Positions 4,101-54,206 of a stretch of DNA of 64,000 nucleotides are shown here, in pieces. Source of the DNA: Gimesia benthica. Lineage in GTDB: Bacteria; Planctomycetota; Planctomycetia; Planctomycetales; Planctomycetaceae. The translations under genes were made by a program, and so were the position numbers. Location: NCBI RefSeq assembly GCF_009720525.1, contig NZ_CP043930.1:1647501-1711500 (forward strand), given 5' to 3'. The notes below the pieces were generated by a model. It ran no database searches. It was not told the origin of the DNA and worked only from the letters and a program-made list of their open reading frames with translations. How positions within the stretch are numbered: position 1 is the stretch's first letter; each line of letters opens with the position of its first letter.

Positions 4101-5045
4101 CTATTCGGCCTGAGCGAGTTTCTGCTTAGCCATCTCGTGGAACTCTTTCCAGGTGATGACTTCGATGCCCAGATCCTTGACCTCTTTGATGACCGCGGGG
4201 TCGGTAAACACGCGGCGGTCACCATCGCGGCGGGAGGAACTGTGGGTGATGTTCTGCAGTTCCTGGTTGTTAAATCCACAGTGAATGATGATCTGCGTGA
4301 CTCCCGGCTTGAGTTCGCGAATCTTTTCGAGGTAGGCCTGTTTCCGCTTTTCGTAGTCGGGTTCGCCATAAAACTGAACCAGTTCATCGAGCACGGGGAG
4401 CCCGTTCTTTTCCAGGACTTCCTTGAGCTGTTTGCCCTTCTCTGCGATCACGCCGTACTTTTTCGGATCGAGATTGTTCACAAACAGGACCGGCAGCTGA
4501 TATTCGATGCCCAGGTTGACGTACATTTCCAAGAGGTCAGGCCGACTGACGACTGCTCCCATGTGGGTATCCAGATGTGAGAGAGGGACGCCGAATTTGC
4601 GGGCCCGTTCGATCTGTGCCCGCAGTTCCTTCTCGGCATCTTTGACGTTCACATGCTGCATCACCTGTCCGACGTTGTCCCAGAGATAATTCTCTTCATC
4701 GAGCAGACTCGGTACCTGATCCCGCGAGGCGACCGGTCCCCAGCGGTAGTTTTTCCACTCGGAATTCAGCGTCAGGTGGATGCCGAAATCCTGTTCGGGG
4801 TTCTGTTTCGCGTAGGCAGCGAATTCTTTGAACCAGGGACAGGGTACCATTATGCTGGCCGAGGAGACGATGCCTTTCTGCATGCCTTCAATGGTGGCGA
4901 GGTTCACCGAGTGTGACATGCCGGCGTCATCGGCGTGAATGATAACGTAGCGTTTCTCGGAGGGCTTCTTGTTTTCCGCCTGAACCAGGGGGAGAAAACT
5001 ACAACTCAAGACCAGGAACCACAGCAGGGTCATTTTCCGTTTCAT
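4101..5045 (-). CDS. Secreted ChbG/HpnK (YdjC)-family carbohydrate deacetylase
   Basis: 314 residues with a signal peptide (residues 1-23, LLWFLVLSCSFLPLVQA). The family's metal site is visible: HADDAGMSHSVN near 36-47 (Asp-Asp) and HLDTHMG around 157, with HLTLNSEW between them. The family removes acetyl groups from N-acetylated oligosaccharides such as chitobiose; most members are cytoplasmic, so export is a planctomycete trait here. It is convergent with the propeller-esterase (15 bases apart) and divergent from the sialate esterase at 5200. Confidence 0.85.
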   Translation of the reverse strand: MKRKMTLLWFLVLSCSFLPLVQAENKKPSEKRYVIIHADDAGMSHSVNLATIEGMQKGIVSSASIMVPCPWFKEFAAYAKQNPEQDFGIHLTLNSEWKNYRWGPVASRDQVPSLLDEENYLWDNVGQVMQHVNVKDAEKELRAQIERARKFGVPLSHLDTHMGAVVSRPDLLEMYVNLGIEYQLPVLFVNNLDPKKYGVIAEKGKQLKEVLEKNGLPVLDELVQFYGEPDYEKRKQAYLEKIRELKPGVTQIIIHCGFNNQELQNITHSSSRRDGDRRVFTDPAVIKEVKDLGIEVITWKEFHEMAKQKLAQAE

Positions 5046-12698: not shown

Positions 12699-13329
12699 GG
12701 CGGCAATACTCCGGCAATCGGATGAACGTGGGGACCCTTTGATCTTAGTGGACCATTTCCGAGAGAGCAAATCCCAGTGTGAACATTGGATTGAGAAAGT
12801 GGATCGATATAGATTCTCTGGGCTTCATAGGACGGGTTTCAACCAGGCAAGTCCACCCCGAACTGGGCCGTCGTGCCCTGCCTGGCGATCTTGGAGGCTT
12901 CCCGTACGTAAGCGATTGTCCGAATTTGAATTAGGTATCACCGGCGGTTACCGGGTAAGACGGTCCCCAAAATTTTCCAGAAATTTCCAATTTTTTTCCG
13001 TTGCTTTTTAAACTTTGGAGTGTTTAATGTCGCGTCAGCTTGAAAAAGCAATCGCAACAGGCATTTTCTTTTCGTCCCGGCGCTCAGCTATTGGTCTCGC
13101 ACAGGCTCTGTTGATACGAGTTGCTGTTCCAACACAAATTTTGCGTTCTTATCGTGAGATTTACGAACTACACAGCATCATTCTGCGAGCCCCTCCAGGG
13201 CAGGTCCCTTTAGCCTTATTTCTGTCTCAAACCTGCTGCGTATACGTTTTCGGTACCTCCGGAAACAGGATAAGAATACAAGATTCTTGTTTTCCATTTC
13301 TTTCTTTTTATCCTTGTTCGGAGACGAAA
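12699..13329. other. 630-base intergenic region and DUF1559 leader
   Basis: Between the divergent membrane-protein operon and the prepilin-like gene. An ORF frame is open from 13015 into the next gene, but the prepilin leader must be N-terminal, so I treat 13015-13329 as leader sequence. No RNA family recognised; AT-rich around 12970-13020. Confidence 0.5.
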
Positions 13330-38400: not shown

Positions 38401-38474
38401 GCACCCGTAGCTCAACTGGATAGAGCACCGGTCTTCGGAACCGGGGGTTAGGGGTTCGAATCCCTTCGGGTGTA
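38401..38474 (+). tRNA. tRNA-Arg(TCG)
   Basis: Acceptor GCACCCG/CGGGTGT (first pair G-T), D-arm AGCTCAACTGGATAGAGC, anticodon stem CCGGT/ACCGG with loop CTTCGGA (anticodon TCG), T-arm with GGGTTCGAATCCC, discriminator A. No encoded CCA. A recombinase gene starts 141 bases downstream and the base composition changes here, so its 3' end is a likely integration site. Confidence 0.95.
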
Positions 38475-40199: not shown

Positions 40200-40916
40200 T
40201 TATCTCTCTTGAGGTCGTGATCGAAGATTTGATAGAGAGAAATTCCCCTCATTGGAGTGGATTGTAGTCTAACTCGACTGTAATATAAGTACAGTGCTTC
40301 GTCTTTAGATCGAAGCCCAACTTACAAAACTATTAGGAGATATTTAGACGGCCTCTTGAGGCCATATTTTGACAATTTGATACGACGTGCGAACGTCAGT
40401 TCTGCTTCTCTCGAAACGACCAACCTGAACCACTATGTGGTTCCTTCAATACAAGAGGCAGTACTTGGACGAACGCTCCCCGAACGGGGGGCGTCGGCCT
40501 TGTGCTGTTCTTGTATACCCCTTGGTCGGGGTCGAGAGAGCGGTCTTGGTTTGACGCTCCCTCTTTTCTTGTCGTTGCTGACACCCGAAAGAGATGCTGA
40601 GACGATTTATCGCACAGTAATTTCTTCTAAAGGGTCACCGCAGATGGCAAAATCACTCACGCAAAGAATGGCACTCGTCCACTTCTTCTCCTCCCTGCTC
40701 TTCCTGCTTCCACTCCACAATCTTAAATCCACAGTCGACTCTCCAGTCACATTCATCTCTCTACAACTTTCAGTTATTGATGATGGTAGCTGCACGCCCA
40801 CGGTGCATAACCGGGAGCTCTCCGCATTTCATAAAGCGACATCCGAGTAGATGGTACTTCTTGGTTTGACCTCACGTTTCGGATTAAAAACTTCTTGAAT
40901 GATTAAGGTGATAGCA
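40200..40916. other. 717-base non-coding stretch with structured element
   Basis: It lies between the recombinase and the GYF operon. It contains a 14-bp palindrome GGCCTCTTGAGGCC (40350-40363) followed by ATATTTT, perhaps the recombinase terminator, and the long hairpin at 40450-40515. A 164-residue ORF here (40356-40850) has no ribosome site and unlikely composition; I do not call it. Confidence 0.55.
40450..40532. ncRNA. Candidate structured RNA or cruciform
   Basis: Nested stems: TACAAGA/TCTTGTA (40450-40456 with 40509-40515), CAGTAC/GTGCTG (40459-40464 with 40502-40507) and a GC-rich tip CGCTCCCC/GGGGGGCG (40474-40481 with 40486-40493, one G-T pair) closed by a GAAC loop. A second hairpin ACCCC/GGGGT follows (40517-40532). 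It is far more GC-rich than its surroundings. It could be an ncRNA, an attenuator for the GYF operon, or a DNA structure. No family recognised. Confidence 0.4.
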
Positions 40917-41794: not shown

Positions 41795-43405
41795 ATGAGT
41801 AAGATGTGGTTTATCATCAAAAATGGCATTGAGGTCGGTCCGTTATCCAACCGGCAGCTTCGTGAATTGGCTTTAACTAAACGTCTTTTACCCAGTGACG
41901 TCATTAGAGCTTCTGATTCTGTAGATGTTTTGCGTGCTGATTCGCTCAATGGTCTGTTCCAGCCGGACACGAAGACCAGCCGTCCAACGCCTCCTCCGCC
42001 CCCGTTGCCTCAATCCGAACCATCCACTCCAAGGAATCCATTATTTTCTGTGTCACCGTTCATGGTTGCGATGATCGGTCTCGGGTTGTTGACGGTATCC
42101 ACGGTTTTTGCAGTCATTGAACACAACTCTTCACCGCAAACAGCAATAGCCATCCAGCAAGGCGATGACGTGTTGGATGGAGAAAAGGATGATGAATTCA
42201 TTGCTGGGAACAATGCAGTCAACACGCCACCTTCGGTCTCTGATCTCCAAGAGCAGGATTCCTCAAAACATCAAACAAAGAATTCTGATACACAGAACAC
42301 CGCTCCCAAAGTTGCTAATAAAAGGTCGCGTGCTACAGGTAGTGAACCTTACCAATTGGATGGAATAGAAAACCTGACAATTCAAGTTCACAATGATGCC
42401 ATCTCTGCAGAGTGGCTGGGAAGACTTTGGGAGGAGCGAATCGAATATGAATCAGTTGCGTTTTCCCCAGATGGCGAGATTCTGGCAGCAGCAGGTGCTC
42501 TTCGTCATGGACTTGTCCATTGGGAAGGTGTGATTTTATTGGCCGAGGCTGCCACAGGTCGAACGATAGTGGCGATGCGTAAGGTACATGATCGGCCTGT
42601 TATTTCGATGGCGTTTTCTCCTGATAGCCAGATGCTGGCGAGTGGTAGCAATGATGGCGTAGTGAAAATCTGGAAACATGATCCACCGAACGAAGTCTCC
42701 AAAATGGTGTTCACTCACCCGATTTCCGGTCTTGGGCGTGCCCCAGATCGACCTGAGCGATTGTTTTGGACTGGAAACGGAACAGGGCTGATTGCTACAG
42801 GTGGCGTCGACTCTTCTCCCCCACTTTATGGCAGTATTGTCCGATGGGATTCAGCAGGATGGAACGAAACGTATGCGTTACGTCTTGAAGGAAGAGTGAC
42901 TTCTGCGGGCCTCACCCGAAATAACGAAATCATTACAGCGTCCACATATGGCATCGACATGTGGAATGCTGATACCGGTAAACCAGCAATATTCACTACT
43001 GATTCAGAGTTGCTTAAACGGGACGAGTATCCTCATGGCAAAGGTTCTAACTGTCTGGTTTCATCATCCGAGGATGGAGCAGTCATTGTTGCTCGCCCAT
43101 TCGGAGGCAAGCGTGGTCAATTAAATGTCTATCGCAATAATTCACGACTCACAACGATTCGAGTTGGAGAAGAAGCGGATAGGGCGGTTGTTTCTTCGAC
43201 CGGCAATATGGTAGCCACCTACAGCCATGGCTCAGATGTCGTGATCTGGGACACTGCGACGGGGGCTAAGTTAGTGACGATTTCAGGGATTCGTCAATAC
43301 CTCTCAGCAATGACATTCTCACCTGATGACCAGATGCTTGCGATCTCACTTTCCGGTGGGGATAACGTGGGTCGCCTCCTTGTTTTGCGAGTGAAACAAA
43401 AATGA
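41795..43405 (+). CDS. GYF_2-domain membrane protein with WD40 propeller
   Basis: 536 residues from the ATG at 41795; a GTG at 41780 overlapping the previous stop (GTGA) would add five residues. GYF_2 domain ~1-50 (MWFIIKNGIEVGPLSNRQLRELAL), Pro-rich linker, one membrane helix (FMVAMIGLGLLTVSTVFAVI), Ser/Asn-rich spacer, and from ~205 on a WD40-type beta-propeller (VAFSPDGEILAAAG, MAFSPDSQMLASGSNDGVVKIW, MTFSPDDQMLAISLSGG). The propeller probably binds a protein outside the cytoplasmic membrane. Translationally coupled to both neighbours. Confidence 0.85.
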   Translation: MSKMWFIIKNGIEVGPLSNRQLRELALTKRLLPSDVIRASDSVDVLRADSLNGLFQPDTKTSRPTPPPPPLPQSEPSTPRNPLFSVSPFMVAMIGLGLLTVSTVFAVIEHNSSPQTAIAIQQGDDVLDGEKDDEFIAGNNAVNTPPSVSDLQEQDSSKHQTKNSDTQNTAPKVANKRSRATGSEPYQLDGIENLTIQVHNDAISAEWLGRLWEERIEYESVAFSPDGEILAAAGALRHGLVHWEGVILLAEAATGRTIVAMRKVHDRPVISMAFSPDSQMLASGSNDGVVKIWKHDPPNEVSKMVFTHPISGLGRAPDRPERLFWTGNGTGLIATGGVDSSPPLYGSIVRWDSAGWNETYALRLEGRVTSAGLTRNNEIITASTYGIDMWNADTGKPAIFTTDSELLKRDEYPHGKGSNCLVSSSEDGAVIVARPFGGKRGQLNVYRNNSRLTTIRVGEEADRAVVSSTGNMVATYSHGSDVVIWDTATGAKLVTISGIRQYLSAMTFSPDDQMLAISLSGGDNVGRLLVLRVKQK

Positions 43406-44418
43406 AAGTACCGGTGCACTTCTATATTTCAGCGGGTGGTGTGGGCTTTGGTCCTTTCAGCAGCGAACAACTCACGCAATTCGTTTTAGCCGGGATCGTA
43501 GATGAAGATAACCTCGTGTGGCGAAAAGGTGACGAGACTTCGCAGCGAGCAGCCACTGTGCTCGATGAGAAGTTCACGGTTTCTGCTATCGAAGATGAAC
43601 TAGCTCCTTCGTTGGCTGCAACAGGTTTAATGTGGGGTATTGCTTTTGCGATCTGGTTGGCGGCTGCCGGAATCTTTGCATATGCCGTCAGCGGTCGATT
43701 TTTGGATCAGCAGTTTGCGACATCCGATGGGAGTAGAGAATCCCTCAAGGATGATCAGCATACCACCAATGGAAACTCGAAACCGGAATTGAAGTCTCCT
43801 GCGATATCGAACGGCAAGCAAAAAGTCATTCTTCCCCAACCAATCTTTTCTCTGACATTTGATGATGATGTGATTCCTGCAAACCGCATTACAGAAAGTG
43901 GTGCAAGACTTGTTAATGGAAAGATCGGTAAAGCTATTGAGTTCGATGGCAGGAACTTTATCGAAACCCAGTGCACTTTGCCGTCTGGAAACTCCCCCCG
44001 CACATTGACTGCATGGATTCAGAATTCAGGAGATTCACGGATTATGAATTCTCATGCCATCGCATGTGGCAGCGATGTTGAGGGAAAGCGAGTCTGGGGC
44101 ATATATCATGCGAATGGAAATTGGGCGACGTATGGCTGGGGACACTATTTGGAAGCGAACACTCATGTGGATCGTGAGTGGCATTTTCACTGCATTTCAT
44201 TTGATGGCGAAAATGTCGTTTATTATGTCGATGGTGAAAATGTAGGTGAGAAAAAAGCAAAACTGGATACAACTGCTGGTCCTATGATTCTTGGGACTTA
44301 TGCCAATCGGGCGATGGGCTTCTGTTTCAAAGGGCTCATTGATGAAGTGAAAGTCTATGATGTTGCACTTGATAAACAGCAAGTCGAAGAGCTTTATGGG
44401 AGCTACCGTCATAAATGA
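43402..44418 (+). CDS. GYF_2-domain membrane protein with LamG/concanavalin-like domain
   Basis: 338 residues; its ATG overlaps the previous stop codon (ATGA). GYF_2 domain ~5-55 (HFYISAGGVGFGPFSSEQLTQFVLAGIVDEDNLVWRKGD), one membrane helix (LMWGIAFAIWLAAAGIFAYAV), then from ~150 a LamG/pentraxin-like jelly roll (FSLTFDDDVIPAN, IGKAIEFDGRNFIETQ, REWHFHCISFDGENVVYYVDGE, GLIDEVKVYDVALDKQQVEELY), a carbohydrate-binding fold. Third member of the trio. Confidence 0.87.
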   Translation: MKVPVHFYISAGGVGFGPFSSEQLTQFVLAGIVDEDNLVWRKGDETSQRAATVLDEKFTVSAIEDELAPSLAATGLMWGIAFAIWLAAAGIFAYAVSGRFLDQQFATSDGSRESLKDDQHTTNGNSKPELKSPAISNGKQKVILPQPIFSLTFDDDVIPANRITESGARLVNGKIGKAIEFDGRNFIETQCTLPSGNSPRTLTAWIQNSGDSRIMNSHAIACGSDVEGKRVWGIYHANGNWATYGWGHYLEANTHVDREWHFHCISFDGENVVYYVDGENVGEKKAKLDTTAGPMILGTYANRAMGFCFKGLIDEVKVYDVALDKQQVEELYGSYRHK

Positions 44419-44507
44419 CACCCGCAATCATCTTTAGATATGAGATTCATCAAAATGAACTGACTTTGATGAGTGCTATCAAACAGTCTTCAATCTGAGG
44501 TCTTAGA

Positions 44508-46891: not shown

Positions 46892-47632
46892 TCAGAGGTC
46901 GACCTGTCGCATCGTCTGCTGATACTTCTCTTCCAGTTGTTTATCGAGAGCTACGTGCTGGTAGATGCTGAGAGTTTCCCGGCGTGCGTGGCCAGTAATC
47001 AGTTGTAGTTCAGCGTCTGCCAATCCTGAGTGCTTGGTGAGCCAAGTGATTGCTTGGTGTCGGAACGTGTGAGGTGTGGCTTTAACCCCAGCTTCCTCAG
47101 CATATTGTTTCACGATCTGTTGAACACGACGGGTTGAAAACTTGGATGCCCGTTTCGTCTGGAACAACCAGCGGTTTGTAGGGCGGTTGGCTATGTGAGT
47201 TTTCAGGGCTGTGGCGAACGTCTTCCCGAACAGAACATACCTGTCCTTACTCCCCTTCCCCTGTTCGACGAAGATCTTACAGTTCTCCAGATCGACATCA
47301 GATACTTTGATGCCACACAATTCTGATACACGAACACCAGTGTAGAACAGAAGACGTAACATCAAGGCGTGCTGTATATCCTCGGCCCGATCTACGATCT
47401 GGTAAAAATGTCTGAATTCCTCTGCCGTCAGTACGCGGGGAAGTTTCCGCCCTTTCTTCTTTGGCTTGAGCTCACACTGCTCACGAACACGGCGACTGAC
47501 ATATCGCCAGTCCTCATAATCCAGACCAGCTTTTCGAACGATCCGGACAACCTGTGAGACAAGCTTTGATTTCGCTTTTTCGTTTTGTGATACGCAAGAC
47601 GTACGTTTTTGATCGGATTTATGGTTGCCCAT
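46892..47632 (-). CDS. Canonical tyrosine recombinase (phage integrase family)
   Basis: 246 residues, shorter than typical (~300), with only a partial core-binding domain. All catalytic residues are present: Arg in YTGVRVSEL, Lys-containing beta hairpin (VEQGKGSKDRYVLF), His-x-x-Arg in PHTFRHQAITW, His in ITGHARRET, and the nucleophile Tyr in LSIYQHV. It performs site-specific DNA exchange. It differs strongly from the 527-residue recombinase at 38616, so the region may hold two elements or the gene may serve an internal inversion/excision site such as the adjacent inverted repeat. Confidence 0.92.
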   Translation of the reverse strand: MGNHKSDQKRTSCVSQNEKAKSKLVSQVVRIVRKAGLDYEDWRYVSRRVREQCELKPKKKGRKLPRVLTAEEFRHFYQIVDRAEDIQHALMLRLLFYTGVRVSELCGIKVSDVDLENCKIFVEQGKGSKDRYVLFGKTFATALKTHIANRPTNRWLFQTKRASKFSTRRVQQIVKQYAEEAGVKATPHTFRHQAITWLTKHSGLADAELQLITGHARRETLSIYQHVALDKQLEEKYQQTMRQVDL

Positions 47633-48802: not shown

Positions 48803-49155
48803 GAAGATGAAGAGGTGACGGATGAGCGATGTGGACCTGAGTTATTAAGACCACAGCCATTTTGGCGATCAATGTTGAGACTGAAAAGCCAACAAAACAA
48901 GGGGTTTCAGAGCAGAGAATCCGAAGAACTCTACTTGTCACATTGACAGGTTGAATTCGGGTGTCTTTCCCTCAGATTCTCATCTGACGCCGAATACCTT
49001 TTCCATAGTAGGTTCTCTTGGGAAAACGAAGGGGATTGCATTTAACTATGGCCCGGATTTTTGGTCTTCGTTTTTTACTGTTCACATTCAGATCTCCCGT
49101 AAATTAATAGATGGTGTCCGGGAGTCCTCCGTGACTCCCAGACACATGTCGATGA
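48803..49155. other. Intergenic region
   Basis: 353 bases with no gene. It holds one near-copy of the octamer discussed below (GGGTGTCT at 48959) with no start codon at the usual distance, and a hairpin GTGTC-GGGAGTC / GACTCCC-GACAC (49114-49145) that may end the minus-strand gene starting at 49401. Confidence 0.55.
49114..49145 (-). terminator. Probable terminator hairpin
   Basis: Interrupted stem GTGTC.GGGAGTC / GACTCCC.GACAC directly after the stop codon at 49156 of the minus-strand gene. No T run, so termination strength is uncertain. Confidence 0.5.
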
Positions 49156-49401: not shown

Positions 49402-49579
49402 TAACATCTCCTGAAAAAGTGAAAAGCGTTTGTTTCAGAGTTCATGCGGGTGTCATTTCATTTCGTGAGACCTTGAGACTTACGTTGACGCCTCTTTTTC
49501 AGTCTTTCTTGGTGGCGGAATCTCATCTGAGATCGCTGTTTGATAGGTCCAGCCCATATCGCTCTCCCCTTAGAAAGAA

Positions 49580-49620
49580 AAAGCTGATGCAAGAATCACT
49601 AAGATTCTCACACCAGCTTT
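49580..49620 (-). terminator. Terminator of the acidic small protein gene
   Basis: On the minus strand AAAGCTGgTG.AGAATC / GATTCT..CAGCTTT followed by TTTTCTTTC, 30 bases after the stop at 49650. It separates this gene from the next, which therefore needs its own promoter. Confidence 0.7.
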
Positions 49621-49649
49621 GTGGGTATCTGGTTTCTGGAAATCAGGGT

Positions 49650-49865
49650 TTAGAATTCGTCATCTCCGAAATAGCCGAAATATTCATCTGCCTGCTCGAA
49701 ATCTTCCAATTCCTGTTGCTGCAGAATTTCATCCCACGGCTCGTCATACGGATATTCTCCGTCGTTCTTTTGGGCGAACTCGTCAGCCGCCTGCTCGTCG
49801 AGCATATCTCCGTATCCGAAGCTCAGATGTCCCTCCATAAACTGATCCAAGTTGCCATCCATCAT
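49650..49865 (-). CDS. Small acidic protein
   Basis: 71 residues, very acidic and aromatic (DEQAADEFAQKNDGEYPYDEPWDEILQ..., ends GYFGDDEF). GGGAG precedes the double ATG. No family recognised; DNA-mimic or chaperone-like small proteins of mobile elements look similar, but this is only a composition argument. The octamer TGACACCC ends 46 bases upstream of the start. Confidence 0.7.
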   Translation of the reverse strand: MMDGNLDQFMEGHLSFGYGDMLDEQAADEFAQKNDGEYPYDEPWDEILQQQELEDFEQADEYFGYFGDDEF

Positions 49866-49922
49866 GTGTTTCTCCCGATAAGAATATTGATGCTGTTAAC
49901 ACAGTGATTGAGGGTGTCAGAA

Positions 49923-50210
49923 TCAGTATTCTTCTGGCAGGAAAATGGTTGTGGCTGATCGGTCAGCTTCCGTAATTACCCAGATCTTAGTGTCGTCATT
50001 GAGATGGTAGACTGAGAAAATCCGGTCGCCGTCTTTAAGGGCTTGTTCATTGGTCTGGCGATCTTCTTCGCACAACACGCTCCAGTCCCCATGCTGATGT
50101 CTCTTGAAAAACTCAAGCGGGGACTGATTGTTTTTCTGGAGTGCATCGAGAGCACCATGCGTAGATACGGTTCGACCGAGTTGGAAGAGAGGTTTACTTT
50201 TTTGGATCAT
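49923..50210 (-). CDS. Small plasmid-type protein of unknown function
   Basis: 95 residues. Matches a family that I recall from plasmids and integrative elements: LGRTVSTHGALDALQKNNQSP, HQHGDWSVLCEEDRQTNEQALKDGDRIFSVYHL, KIWVITEADRSATTIFLPEEY. Function unknown despite wide spread. AAGGA before the ATG; octamer 48 bases upstream of the start. Confidence 0.85.
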   Translation of the reverse strand: MIQKSKPLFQLGRTVSTHGALDALQKNNQSPLEFFKRHQHGDWSVLCEEDRQTNEQALKDGDRIFSVYHLNDDTKIWVITEADRSATTIFLPEEY

Positions 50211-51184
50211 CTCGTTTCCTTCAAAAATGATTGTTGGTTACTCGAACAATCTTCTGATGGGTGTCAGATATGATTCAGTTGCAGTCATGCTACAGGGGCA
50301 TGAAGAGATGTGGTGCCAGTTCATGCAGGACCTGATCTGTTTGATTGAGAAGATCTGGAGAATTATGGTCCAAAACAAAATTTTGTGTCCAAAAATCACA
50401 GACTGGCACTCTTATATATTGCCATTCCCGAAAACAGGGAAATTTGATAGACTACGATCACTTTGAATTACTAAGACATACCGTGCATTACCATGATTTA
50501 CGACGCATTACCTTCGCTGAGGTAAATAAATTATTGCCGTTTGGTTACGGCCTCTTGCACGGGCTGATGTGAAAAGATCATGCAAAAAAGTCTTAGGACA
50601 AAAGATGGCCGCAGGGATCACGCTGATTCCAGTCAAAGTGTGTTAAATCCTCCACACTTTAAGTAGTCTGAGTCTGAAATGGAAAGTTTTCCCTATAAGG
50701 GTTTTCTCCGGGCAACGGACTGGTACTTGATCCAGTATAAACGCCTACGTCCCGGTCGATATATACACTCTAAAAACTGCCTGTAATTAAGATGATGTCA
50801 GTAGGTTTTGATTAAGTTGTACTACTGGTGACTGCTTTTAATTGATGAAACAAACAATAATGAAAAGCGAAATCCCTAAAGAACTACACATAAAGGGAAA
50901 TGAAGAATCATGGAATAAGCATTACTTCCAATTACTTCAAAATCCCTTGTGTGTGGTAGGGATGGCGTTTTAAATATTGCTTTATAAATAGCCTCTTTTT
51001 GTTGTCTTTTGAAACAACATTTCCCTGAGACAACATGAACATTTACCAGACAACAATAAAACACATTTGAAACGCTCTGTATGCCCCCAGATTTAAATGT
51101 CTTTATTCAGAGTATTGAAACCATTCCACAATAGATAACCATTTATTGTGTTTTGAATGTTGTCTTCTGCTCCCCTTTCATGTG
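50211..51184. other. Gene-free ~970-base gap inside the mobile gene block
   Basis: AT-rich. Contains a hairpin AAAGTGTG / CACACTTT (50635-50660), the palindrome CCCTATAAGGG near 50695, and four AGACAACA octamers (51000-51165, two in each direction). No ORF has a ribosome site. It could be a control or replication region. Confidence 0.5.
51000..51165. repeat. Four AGACAACA repeats (two direct, two inverted)
   Basis: TGTTGTCT at 51000-51007 and 51158-51165; AGACAACA at 51028-51035 and 51048-51055. The exact 8-mer four times in 166 bases is well above chance. It resembles a binding-site cluster near the 3' end of the 51185 gene. Confidence 0.6.
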
Positions 51185-51493
51185 TCAGATGGGAATCACT
51201 TCATATTCAGCTGCTTCTCCATTAGCCAGTTTTTCAATGGCCCCAAAGGCTTTAGTTTCTCTGTCTGCTGTCATCCTGCACAGACTGGAAATCTTACTGG
51301 CGAAACAGATCGTGACTGGATGATTGTTGATTTCATCCCCTGACATTCCAGTTTCTCGCATGGCCTTGAGGTGTCTGTGAAGAGATCCCACAACAGCGAT
51401 GAGATTGACTGCATCCTGAACTGCAATGGCATCGCTGGCAGCTTTTTGAAGACGCTCATTATTGCCGTCTGATATGGCGAGTTGATTAAGCAT
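51185..51493 (-). CDS. Hypothetical protein of the ArdC/ATPase block
   Basis: 102 residues from the ATG at 51493 (AAGGAG seven bases before). A GTG at 51544 in the same frame overlapping the ATPase stop codon would add 17 residues. Mostly helical (ISDGNNERLQKAASDAIAVQDAVNLIAVVGSLHRHLKAMRETG), ends AAEYEVIPI. No family recognised. It follows the ATPase gene, preceded by a variant octamer (TGACACCT) 42 bases before the start. Confidence 0.75.
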   Translation of the reverse strand: MLNQLAISDGNNERLQKAASDAIAVQDAVNLIAVVGSLHRHLKAMRETGMSGDEINNHPVTICFASKISSLCRMTADRETKAFGAIEKLANGEAAEYEVIPI

Positions 51494-51540
51494 TTTATGC
51501 TCCTTGCTGGAGATGTGTGGTAATGGTTTGAAGGCAGGTG

Positions 51541-52446
51541 TCACTCGGATTCTTCCGTCTGTTCTTTGAAACGAGCTAACACTCGATAAAACGATGCCCT
51601 GCTCTTAGTCGTTTTCTCCATATAATACTGACACTGCTCCAAGGGCTGATCGGGATATTTACGCAGAGCAATTTGAAGAATCCGAAAATCTCTCTCTCTA
51701 TTTGAAATTCTCTTTGTTGCTGAGGCTGGTCTGCCAAGTGTTTGAAGCTGGGCATTCAGAACAGGCCGCCAATCAGTCCCTTCCACCGTACAGAATTTGT
51801 AGATACGAATGGCCGGTGTCAGTAATCGCATTGAGAGTTGCTTTTCACTTCCCTGTTCTTCAATGTAATCGATTATTTCGGCAGCAGCCTCTGGAGGGCA
51901 TCCGGGATATCCATCGGTAGCCATTACCCGAAATTGTTCGATTATCTCCTGATTGCTGAGGTCCAGTCTATAAACCAGACAACGACTCAAGACTGCATCA
52001 AACATCGGATTCTTTTTAGGAATCTGATTGGCACAGAAAATGAAACGTGACGTGGTTTCGAAACGTGTCGGAAGATCGTCCGGTAATTGTGAACTATTGT
52101 AAGTAACAATTCGATTTGGCTGACCATATAGAGCACTTCGCAGAATGCCTAATGCACTGGCACTCGTGTAAAGAGAGTCGCAGTCATCAAAAAACAAAAC
52201 GGCATCATTGTTTCTATTTTCATACAGCACGCGATAGAGTTGAAGAGTCGTACAATGACTATTGAAAAGCACCATGTCCTGACCTTCCTCCTCAAGCGTT
52301 CGTGTGATTGTATATGACTTTCCAGTTCCGCCATTTGAAATAATAAAGATGCTGTGATACTGAAATTGGGAAATCATTTTTATCATGTTTTTTAATGTTT
52401 GTTGCTTCTTTTCGAGGCGTGTCAAGGAGCGATTAATCGATTCCAT
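51541..52446 (-). CDS. AAA+ ATPase of phage/plasmid type
   Basis: 301 residues. Walker A SNGGTGKSYT near 38-47, Walker B VLFFDDCDS near 83-91, sensor-like FIFCANQIP and Arg-finger region VLSRCLVYRLDL. The C-terminal part contains a helical domain with a possible winged helix (DFRILQIALRKYPDQPLEQCQYYMEKTTKSRASFYRVLARF). Probably a DNA-metabolism or loading ATPase of the mobile element. AAAGGA precedes the ATG. Confidence 0.85.
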   Translation of the reverse strand: MESINRSLTRLEKKQQTLKNMIKMISQFQYHSIFIISNGGTGKSYTITRTLEEEGQDMVLFNSHCTTLQLYRVLYENRNNDAVLFFDDCDSLYTSASALGILRSALYGQPNRIVTYNSSQLPDDLPTRFETTSRFIFCANQIPKKNPMFDAVLSRCLVYRLDLSNQEIIEQFRVMATDGYPGCPPEAAAEIIDYIEEQGSEKQLSMRLLTPAIRIYKFCTVEGTDWRPVLNAQLQTLGRPASATKRISNRERDFRILQIALRKYPDQPLEQCQYYMEKTTKSRASFYRVLARFKEQTEESE

Positions 52447-52488
52447 TTTTCTATCCTTTCACAATAATTGCGGGTGTCATTTTTAAAG

Positions 52489-52574
52489 GATCGCCGCCCT
52501 GATCTGGCATTGTCAGTGGTCTTCAATCCGAACTGAAAGACCACTGAGATCTGTAATGATCAGTGACGGCGATC
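52489..52574. repeat. Nested three-arm inverted repeat between ArdC and ATPase genes
   Basis: Arms, outer to inner: GATCGCCG/CGGCGATC (52489-52496 with 52567-52574), CTGATC/GATCAG (52499-52504 with 52558-52563), TCAGTGGTCTT/AAGACCACTGA (52513-52523 with 52537-52547). 25 paired bases in total around a 13-base loop. Flanked on both sides by the TGACACCC octamer (52472 and 52586). It could be a terminator, processing site or RNA element. Confidence 0.8.
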
Positions 52575-52590
52575 ACTCCAATTGCGGGTG

Positions 52591-53484
52591 TCAGCCAGCG
52601 ACTTCGACAGGCTTTTTGCTGAATGACATGATGTAGTCAGCAGCCTTAGAGGCTTGTGAAGAAGCTTGAAAGATGAATGACGAATCCTGCTTCATTCTTT
52701 GAAGCCATCCATTGAGGTATGCGTGGTGGTTTTCTTCATTGGTGGGAATTCCAAGTTCTGAGCAGAGATAGCACGCTCCGATCTCCGCGATCAATTCGCC
52801 CAGTGCATATCCACCACTCTTTCGATCCCAATTGAGACGGTTGGTATGTTCTGCCCAGTGCACAAGTTCATGCAGCACCGTGTCATAGTATCCCGATCCT
52901 GAAAACTGATCTCGATTTGGAACTTGGATATAGTCTTGTGCGAGATCGTAAAAAGCTTGGTTGCCACCGTGTCGAATATCAGCTCCGGTTGCTTCGATCA
53001 GGGCGTCAGCTTCATCAAAAGTGTTACTGACCTCATTACGGGTGTCAGTTTTGAATCCGACACGAAGATAATCCAGATGATCTCCCTCAACTTGATCAAC
53101 ACAGAAGACGGTATAGGTCCTAAGCAGGAAATATGTCTCCTCTTCGTCGTGGCCCTTTTTCTTTGTTACCGCTTTGCAGAAAACGATCTTGGTGCCCCAC
53201 TGACCTTTTGATACACGCGAAGGCCGTCGCATGATTTTGCCACCGAGCTGTTCCCATTGCCTGAACGTCCCCCAATACCGAGATTGAAATCCATGACGCT
53301 CGCTGGCGAGCCCCAAAAGAAGTGGATTAACTCCTGTGTATAATTCACCGGAGACTATATTTTTTCCCATCCCACTGTTGCGATCACGGGACCACGGTTT
53401 TCGCCACGGCAGAAGCGAGCCACTCTCTAAAGCGGTAATGATTTGATTCGTGATTTCTTCGCGAATTTTCTGATTGTTTGACAC
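52591..53484 (-). CDS. ArdC-like antirestriction protein (ssDNA-binding N-domain plus zincin)
   Basis: 297 residues from a GTG at 53484 (AAGGAG 11 bases upstream). The N-terminal ssDNA-binding domain has the family marks (ITNQIITALESGSLLPWRKPW, YTGVNPLLLGLASERHGF, YWGTFRQWEQLGGKI, GQWGTKIVFCKAVTKK). The C-terminal zinc metallopeptidase-like domain has HELVHWAEH near 210 and YALGELIAEIGACYLCSELGI. ArdC proteins protect incoming plasmid DNA from restriction. First gene of the minus-strand block. Confidence 0.93.
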   Translation of the reverse strand: MSNNQKIREEITNQIITALESGSLLPWRKPWSRDRNSGMGKNIVSGELYTGVNPLLLGLASERHGFQSRYWGTFRQWEQLGGKIMRRPSRVSKGQWGTKIVFCKAVTKKKGHDEEETYFLLRTYTVFCVDQVEGDHLDYLRVGFKTDTRNEVSNTFDEADALIEATGADIRHGGNQAFYDLAQDYIQVPNRDQFSGSGYYDTVLHELVHWAEHTNRLNWDRKSGGYALGELIAEIGACYLCSELGIPTNEENHHAYLNGWLQRMKQDSSFIFQASSQASKAADYIMSFSKKPVEVAG

Positions 53485-54206
53485 TAGTAGCCGTCTCCTT
53501 ATGAGGTTGATTGGACGGCGTACTTAAGGGTGTCAACCAGAATTACTTGGCGTAGAAGCGATTATCAGCGAGAAATGATACAATGCTCTGAAAATTGAGA
53601 ATTCAGAAGGTGAGACGGAAGAAAATGAGACCGATTTTTGCCAAATGTTTACAGAGGAATGTCTTTATTTCAGCTAGAAATAGCGTGTTTTATGAAATCC
53701 GAATGAGCTCAGTCTCAAATCTCAATGAAATTCAGCAATGTAAATACACAGACTCATTTCAGGCGAGACACCCAACAATAATTCATTCCTTATACAGGAT
53801 GAACACGAATTATTACGAATGAACGAGCGGGAATAATTTTTTGGAATATTCCTTAACTCAAGCAACCTGCATTCCAACATTCGTAATGAACCAGACACAA
53901 CATTATTTAATCATGAATGCAACATTTGGATCATCCAATATTGTATTTCGATTGCTCATGAAATCTGTGATGGGGAAAAAATGATTTCTGAAATTTTTGC
54001 TTCGAAACAATTTTGGGCCAGAAAACGGGAGTTGATTAAATTACCCAAATGTTGTTTTAAGATTCCCCGGACTTTTGGGCCGAAAGAAATAATTTGGCAC
54101 TTTAATCTGCGGCACAGAATCATTTCATCCCACAAAAAAATCCCGGTAGAGTACAATGCTCTACCGGGAAGTCATTAACTGGTGACAGACTAGGATCTGC
54201 ACCATT
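53485..54206. other. Gene-free region before the ArdC block
   Basis: 722 bases, AT-rich. It should hold the promoter of the ArdC gene. Short ORFs here lack ribosome sites. TTTTGGGCC occurs twice (near 54011 and 54073). Confidence 0.5.
54142..54168 (-). terminator. Rho-independent terminator
   Basis: Stem CCCGGTAGAG / CTCTACCGGG, 7-base loop, T7 on the minus strand (54140-54134). It ends the minus-strand gene whose stop lies at 54207. Confidence 0.9.

Follow-up and report, generated by a model that had tools for sequence, protein, structure and literature searches.

Within a 64,000-nucleotide (nt) stretch of the Gimesia benthica chromosome (NZ_CP043930.1, positions 1,647,501 to 1,711,500; referred to as the window and numbered from its first letter) lies a block of genes headed by ardC. 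Nearly every gene of the planctomycete elements that carry ardC was preceded, at a set distance, by a short sequence word of the element's own, which looks like a private gene-expression code. The reading we favour, tentatively and as somewhat short of probable, is that each gene has a compact promoter of its own, in which the word is the site recognised, throughout the mobile element, by a private specificity factor and the RNA starts at a pyrimidine-purine step further downstream.

The word and its versions

Seven exact copies of the octamer TGACACCC were located on the minus strand of the ArdC block (49448-53535) and none on the plus strand of the block, and a near copy, TGACACCT, was located at 51536-51543 (minus strand) ahead of the gene P3. 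A recount of the window thus confirmed the eight same-strand copies, seven of them exact, of a preliminary description of this DNA, as well as its distances from octamer end to start codon for six genes (46, 46, 48, 42, 25 and 43 nt) and the two places where the TGA of the octamer is the preceding stop codon, those of ardC (52591-52593) and of the AAA gene (51541-51543). Two further exact copies were present on the plus strand of the window (40579 and 44416), giving nine in 64 kb relative to a shuffle mean of 2.3, with nine or more in 0 of 100 shuffles. Twenty stretches of the same chromosome (760,040 bases, both strands counted) included eight copies, a background that predicts approximately 0.04 copies in the block where seven were seen and that agrees with the earlier estimate of fewer than one by chance. 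A start codon 38-51 nt on was found for none of these eight chromosomal copies and for 4 of 180 chromosomal GACACC sequences in the same stretches. A pattern of octamer, Shine-Dalgarno sequence and ATG gave 15 rows in the whole 8.03-Mb genome, of which four (three sites) were in the block and the others scattered, and the backward-read control gave five rows genome-wide. The word was not spread along the chromosome, nor was the octamer as frequent away from gene starts as before them.

The true core of the window word is GACACC, and two sites missed by the preliminary description (49113-49118 and 48960-48965) are therefore added. Its statement that the octamer precedes every gene of the block held for six genes, while the copy at 53040 is inside ardC, where it is probably due to chance, and the copy at 52586 precedes a non-coding stretch rich in hairpins. 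Its alternative of tiny leader open reading frames (ORFs) beginning NTG-ACA-CCC was not sustained, as most words of other elements are without NTG at that position (AGGACACC, CGGACACC, ACACCTGTTAG and GAGGCACC) and keep the same position and spacing.

Relatives of the AAA protein were identified in 13 of 120 genomes of the family, at eight loci in the genome collection and in 8 of 392 genomes across the phylum (E 1e-20), with none in viral contigs, and relatives of ArdC were identified in 39 of 170 genomes of the family. The commonest surplus gene-strand 8-mers around these relatives were variants of one word that differed by element. A word was called in 24 planctomycete element loci, while the wide flanks of 15 other loci (L023, L029-L034, L037, L042, L057, L058, L100, L102, L104 and L105) gave none; the sequence of L039 ends early, and L035, L062 and L108 duplicate elements that are in the count under other loci. 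The word expressions were picked by eye from k-mer tables, a choice that partly presets skeleton positions -2 to +2, and the weakest words were those of L097, L098, L099 and L106 (one to four leaders each within 36-54 nt).

The motif search in other ArdC-bearing planctomycete elements, proposed in the preliminary description, showed the word recurring at the same place in a version of each element's own, constant within an element and differing between elements. TGACACCC was the word of the window, L021, L024, L038 and L055, while AGGACACCGGCAAG was that of L022, L027, L041 and L060 and GAGGCACCCCCTAG that of L101 and L103. Other versions included CGGACACCAACTAC (L025), GAGGACACCGGCCAG (L026), ACACCTGTTAG (L036), ACACCCGCAA (L056), CATACCCACTAC (L096), GTTGTACCTGT (L099) and CCAGTGTACCC (L107), and the plus strand of L022 featured 14 copies of GACACCGG where 0.19 were expected. 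The pooled majority skeleton was RYACC-NNYNAG (133 leaders). A start codon followed 36-54 nt after ACC in 139 leaders from the 24 loci, typically at about 47 nt, and in a random control 3.5% of 4,800 positions had one at 38-51 nt. Within the genus a 14-letter form of the word was present in 7 of 17 genomes, clustered in G038, G119, G488 and G489 and with one or two scattered copies in each of the remaining three.

Three genomes included two elements with different words, namely G119 (L021 and L022), G449 (L055 and L103) and G489 (L041 and L108), and a host factor alone therefore cannot explain flanking letters that are constant inside each element yet differ between two elements of one cell. 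In G119 and G489 the other end of the same island has GYF-domain and zinc-ribbon genes on the opposite strand, and these too are preceded by the same word. These copies, together with the facing-strand copies of the window, indicate that the word marks genes of both strands and is oriented with the gene; it is an asymmetric repeated site oriented with transcription, as stoperators are. The difference between elements, the fixed step described below and the use of the same word by a facing block were additional to the preliminary description.

L040 had 65 GACACC cores on a single strand within 20.9 kb, mostly inside genes, and was excluded from the step, pairing and pooled-base counts. Such an array, together with the location of words at gene junctions and often on a stop codon, would be expected if the word were a recombination site copied at each gene addition. 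This explanation is highly improbable, as L021, L027 and L036 share a serine recombinase (77-80% identity) and have three different words, word distance is correlated at only 0.26 with the recombinase and 0.09 with the integrase, and homologous genes keep their order while the words differ.

Other repeats were noted around these loci. Two word copies 65-66 base pairs (bp) apart were located ahead of the first ardC in L026, L022, L027, L041 and L060. Boxes of TCTCAT/ATTCTCATGCGA were repeated upstream of ardC in L022, L027, L036, L040, L041, L056, L060 and L096, and being common to elements with different words they may represent a separate control region of the block. Near the ArdC relative of L102 (G489:C37), the gene strand had six copies of CGGACCAT where 0.26 were expected, and this may be a further, shorter word. 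L037, which has the AAA gene and no word, included GGGTGCTA repeats spaced 22-23 bp at 4898-4950 and 12785-12815.

The step, the promoter reading and the leader RNA

The bases downstream of the octamer had been described as otherwise unrelated, which was wrong. A pyrimidine-purine step (+14/+15) was present exactly 11 nt after ACC, 6 nt past the word end, in 97 of 117 leaders, relative to about 25% of leaders at most other offsets. After removal of leaders more than 70% alike the step was present in 41 of 53 (background 0.24, p 6e-16), and chromosomal GACACC controls had it in 39 of 180 cases. Sites without a start codon at 36-54 nt kept the step in 51% of 76 cases, chance matches inside genes included. 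The step was retained in all five short AAA leaders (gap 25-27 nt; window, L021, L038, L055 and L109) and in five of six leaders lengthened by hairpins (61-68 nt). Since the spacing from word to step is fixed while the start-codon gap ranges from 25 to 68 nt, the unit is the word with the step rather than the word with the start codon, and it is the stretch from step to start codon that varies. Past the step the leaders were A/C-rich and poor in G and T, and the implied 5' untranslated region (UTR) was 33.8 +/- 3.5 nt (139 leaders).

A start codon at a nearly constant distance (about 47 nt) and an A/C-rich leader, along with conserved base-paired arms in ardC leaders, would also suit a word that acts within the 5' UTR to bring in a translation factor or RNA-binding protein, the role proposed for the cluster K start-associated sequences. 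We consider this very unlikely, as the start-codon distance varies (25-68 nt) whereas the word-step spacing does not, the word is not selected to be unpaired, and it has no conserved complement, 5 of 17 elements being without an antisense match of at least 8 nt in the stretch searched. An antisense guide RNA was rejected on the same count, and the one to four matches of the other elements share no place.

The absence of a -10 box after the octamer was borne out by counts of TATAAT-like hexamers in 123 leaders, which numbered one at +3 and zero, two and one at +19, +20 and +21, with 2.1 expected per offset. A sigma-70 promoter was rejected, as there was no such excess where a start at +15, or a word acting as -35 element with 16-18-nt spacing, needs its -10; the highest counts fell elsewhere (nine at +22, eight at -15 and eight at -28). 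A promoter of the extracytoplasmic function (ECF) type, with the word and a CGTC-like step as its -35/-10 pair, was also rejected, the spacing of about 11 nt being too short. The usual spacing of the ECF pair is 15-17 nt.

In the promoter reading, the recognition element would be approximately 14 bp with ACC at its fixed core, and its reader would be a specificity factor private to the element. The RNA would start at the purine of the step, 15 nt after the A of ACC, with a 5' UTR of about 34 nt that is A/C-rich and ends in the Shine-Dalgarno sequence. Words would have diverged together with their readers, so that a cell could have two elements without cross-talk between them. The upstream part of the leader would pair with the Shine-Dalgarno sequence or complete a terminator, by which read-through RNA would be muted while the element's own transcripts would remain open. 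The preliminary description, which had suggested the core of gene-by-gene promoters or a 5' UTR signal, had the right family of answers, the element-encoded regulator that it named being a putative one.

Predicted pairing in the leaders was consistent with a boundary at the step. The Shine-Dalgarno sequence was unpaired at 0.454 with its own upstream part and at 0.503 with parts swapped from other elements (p 0.002, 125 leaders); differences above 0.15 were towards lower values in 30 leaders and towards higher values in 7. The excess pairing spanned about +1 to +16 and was gone by +18, as if the translated RNA began at the step. Leaders of the 143-amino-acid (aa) MGW gene (window, L024, L038, L055 and L109) included a terminator-like hairpin with a 5' arm starting upstream of the step; as predicted from the sequence, it would stop RNA arriving from the preceding gene and be broken in RNA that starts at the step. 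The copy in the window (49620-49580) bears out the earlier mention of a terminator between genes.

A nuclease that recognises the word in polycistronic RNA, cuts at the step and frees each Shine-Dalgarno sequence would likewise account for the fixed position of the step, for the end of the pairing there, for words at junctions ahead of hairpins rather than genes and for a hairpin in L096 that begins at the step. Such processing appears quite unlikely given that the first gene of the block also has the word (ardC, 22 of 23 loci), as would be expected of a promoter more than of a cut between cistrons, and that the terminator of the MGW leaders would stop upstream RNA before the gene. The word was also no more unpaired in RNA than with shuffled flanks (0.502 and 0.521, p 0.19), and recognition in DNA is therefore at least as likely as in RNA.

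This last result is also in keeping with a stoperator-like operator, where an element-encoded repressor would bind the word at each gene and block transcription as long as the element resides in the chromosome, its specificity diverging as in phage immunity. The word resembles mycobacteriophage stoperators in being asymmetric, in a single orientation and element-specific. However, the step 11 nt on and the set start-codon distance are not explained by a repressor alone, and a repressor family common to the elements was not found among the shared families, so that we regard this explanation as unlikely.

Several observations count against the promoter reading. The step at +14 was missing in 20 of 117 leaders, including four of six in L026 and three of four in L106, and the stretch from word to step is not AT-rich, unlike usual melting regions. 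The Shine-Dalgarno effect had the same sign and a p of 0.12 on 53 non-similar leaders (12 lower, 4 higher). The hairpin of the P6 leader in L096 starts at the step (+14), so that the gene's own transcripts would keep it, and some words stand at junctions without a following gene, ahead of hairpins. Scans of a subset of the block ORFs brought up no recognisable sigma factor, RNA polymerase or common DNA-binding regulator, and no sigma factor was seen by eye among the families shared by at least three elements.

Other forms of RNA structure were considered as general features of the leaders and rejected. Pairing of the word with its own leader was raised in L036 (5.5 vs 4.15) and a few others, and a hairpin in every leader was only partly seen, the mean stem being 4.84 vs 4.14 in shuffled sequences (87 leaders, with the 11 of L040 excluded). 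Long-range pairing within leaders was matched in 1 of 2000 permutations on 125 leaders and in 265 of 5000 on 64 non-similar ones, and was strong mainly in ardC leaders. A hairpin around the Shine-Dalgarno sequence of ardC was observed in the window, L021, L022, L025, L026, L027, L028, L055, L056, L101 and L103, with arms that differ and yet stay complementary (CCGTC/GACGG, CGTCGT/ACGACG and GAGCGTC/GACGCTC), and may represent self-control of ArdC. A hairpin-rich non-coding stretch follows ardC in the window (52490-52586, minus strand), L022 (7905), L025 (7876), L056 (7227) and L101 (9989); its first letters, starting at the step, are CGTCCTGATCGGGAC or CGTTCCGATCGGGAC in several elements, and it is possibly a small RNA. 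A search of Rfam with the window, L022, L103 and L055 gave only three transfer RNAs (tRNAs), all in the window.

Candidate readers

ArdC was the only family present in 23 of the 24 word-bearing loci, a near-universality that is partly built in because AAA and ArdC were the starting points of the search. Four loci with ArdC (L100, L102, L104 and L105) gave no clear word. The distance between words was correlated with the distance between ArdC proteins at 0.55 (n 23, 0 of 500 permutations). Correlations for other families were 0.59 for P6 (n 16), 0.83 for P5 (n 11), 0.59 for P3 (n 8) and 0.52 for MGW (n 14), with lower values for P4 (0.32), AAA (0.31) and the recombinase and integrase given above. 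These correlations are in large part attributable to shared ancestry. The ArdC of plasmid R388 binds single-stranded DNA without sequence preference, according to the portion of the report drawn on here (PMC7213743).

The AAA protein of the window had 66% identity to that of L025, 63% to L026 and 48% to L021, while the window word is the L021 word. Relatedness of AAA is thus at odds with word sharing and AAA is an unlikely reader; the window gene itself looks exchanged, its leader and word being of the L021 type. L037 and L042 have AAA and P4, had no ArdC, P5, P6 or MGW by tblastn, and had no such word. A sigma-like ORF in L061 was rejected as a candidate, with no relative near the other 30 loci searched. 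That each ArdC-bearing element has a private orthogonal transcription code, in which an unrecognised kind of specificity factor co-diverges with the word and ArdC would be the boldest candidate reader, is a doubtful proposition on the present comparisons.

The ArdC block and known systems

The features of the window are listed in Table 1. The predicted structure of P6 (mean predicted local distance difference test score 79.5) had no match at E <= 0.001 in a search of the PDB. The 3' end of the tRNA at 38401 was considered as an attachment site and rejected, as repeats of this tRNA within the window did not exceed 14 nt.

Table 1. Words, genes and hairpins of the window
Feature	Position	Strand	Remarks
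Word TTGACACCCTTAAG before ardC	53528..53535	-	predicted 5' end 53516 (+15), step 53517/53516
ardC, GTG start, ArdC N domain and zincin domain	52591..53484	-	PF08401 1.3e-31, PF18818 7.2e-39
Word overlapping ardC stop codon, then hairpin-rich non-coding stretch	52586..52593	-	step TG present
Word before AAA gene, short leader	52472..52479	-	predicted 5' end 52460, step TG present
AAA-like ATPase gene, 301 aa	51541..52446	-	named from motifs and phrog_1250 (function unknown)
Word TGACACCT on AAA stop codon, before P3	51536..51543	-	predicted 5' end 51524
P3, 102 aa, matched to no family	51185..51493	-	
Word before P4	50259..50266	-	predicted 5' end 50247
P4, 95 aa	49923..50210	-	relative in 20/24 word-bearing loci
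Word before P5	49912..49919	-	predicted 5' end 49900
P5, 71 aa, acidic	49650..49865	-	
Decayed word GATACCC before remnant of MGW gene	49623..49629	-	intact GACACC in L024, L038, L055, L109
Intrinsic-terminator-like hairpin, 18 pairs, within MGW leader	49580..49620	-	similar hairpins in L024, L038, L055, L109
Word before P6	49448..49455	-	predicted 5' end 49436
P6, 81 aa	49156..49401	-	relative in 16/24 word-bearing loci
GACACC core before small basic ORF	49113..49118	-	
Small basic ORF, 37 aa (...RTYYGKGIRRQMRI), RTYYGKG motif, conserved	48972..49085	-	similar ORF in L021, L038, L055
GACACC core right after small ORF, then hairpin	48960..48965	-	
Tyrosine integrase, between the two blocks	46892..47632	-	PF00589 7e-37
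Word on stop codon of GYF gene 43402-44418, 84 nt ahead of 44508	44416..44423	+	
Facing-strand word, 59 nt ahead of possible 68-aa ORF	40579..40586	+	

If the promoter reading is true, private expression codes, so far known from phages, would extend to an entire class of mobile elements in bacteria. The coexistence of several such elements in one cell would then be explained, and planctomycetes would gain orthogonal parts for gene expression. Since the word has more than ten natural versions, reader and word can be separated by comparison. The word is also a simple handle to find and delimit elements in genomes, by calling it and following it on both strands.

No report of the word was seen among the open-licence papers listed for ArdC with planctomycetes or genomic islands, for short conserved per-gene motifs of integrative elements or for planctomycete promoters. 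The comparisons that follow draw on portions of each source. The gp36 sigma factor of phage phiEco32 uses single-element promoters with the RNA start 6-8 bp downstream (PMC8948821). The likeness lies in one short element ahead of many genes, with a specificity that differs between related phages, and the step 6 nt after the word end is placed accordingly, with a start predicted here from sequence alone. The sequences are unrelated, however, and the present elements are integrated in planctomycetes, with no sigma factor recognised.

Stoperators of cluster A mycobacteriophages are asymmetric 13-bp sites that are numerous per genome and oriented with transcription, with a consensus that tracks the repressor (PMC6550527). 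The word is similarly an asymmetric 13-14-bp sequence in many copies along transcription, with a consensus private to groups of elements, but it differs in sequence, in its set start-codon distance and in its second fixed step, and no repressor was recognised. The start-associated sequences of cluster K are 13-bp asymmetric repeats before non-structural genes in one orientation (PMC3203893), and share with the word the single orientation and a preceding stop codon that is sometimes inside the repeat. While GGGATAGGAGCCC lies 3-7 bp before the start and contains the Shine-Dalgarno sequence, the word lies about 47 nt before it, is without a Shine-Dalgarno sequence and is of other sequence.

In the T4 gene for I-TevI the ribosome site is hidden by a hairpin in long transcripts, and a late promoter starts RNA inside the hairpin and leaves the site open (PMC2988022). 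The logic of an upstream part that hides the Shine-Dalgarno sequence and is lost in the gene's own transcript is the same, although the hidden site is here only predicted and is clear in a minority of leaders. Regulatory sequences of establishment genes in the pLS20 family (PMC8708921) are likewise shared upstream of operons including ardC, but precede operons and not every gene. The nearest known kinds, phage sigma promoters, stoperators and start-associated sequences, each share some features of the word and not others.

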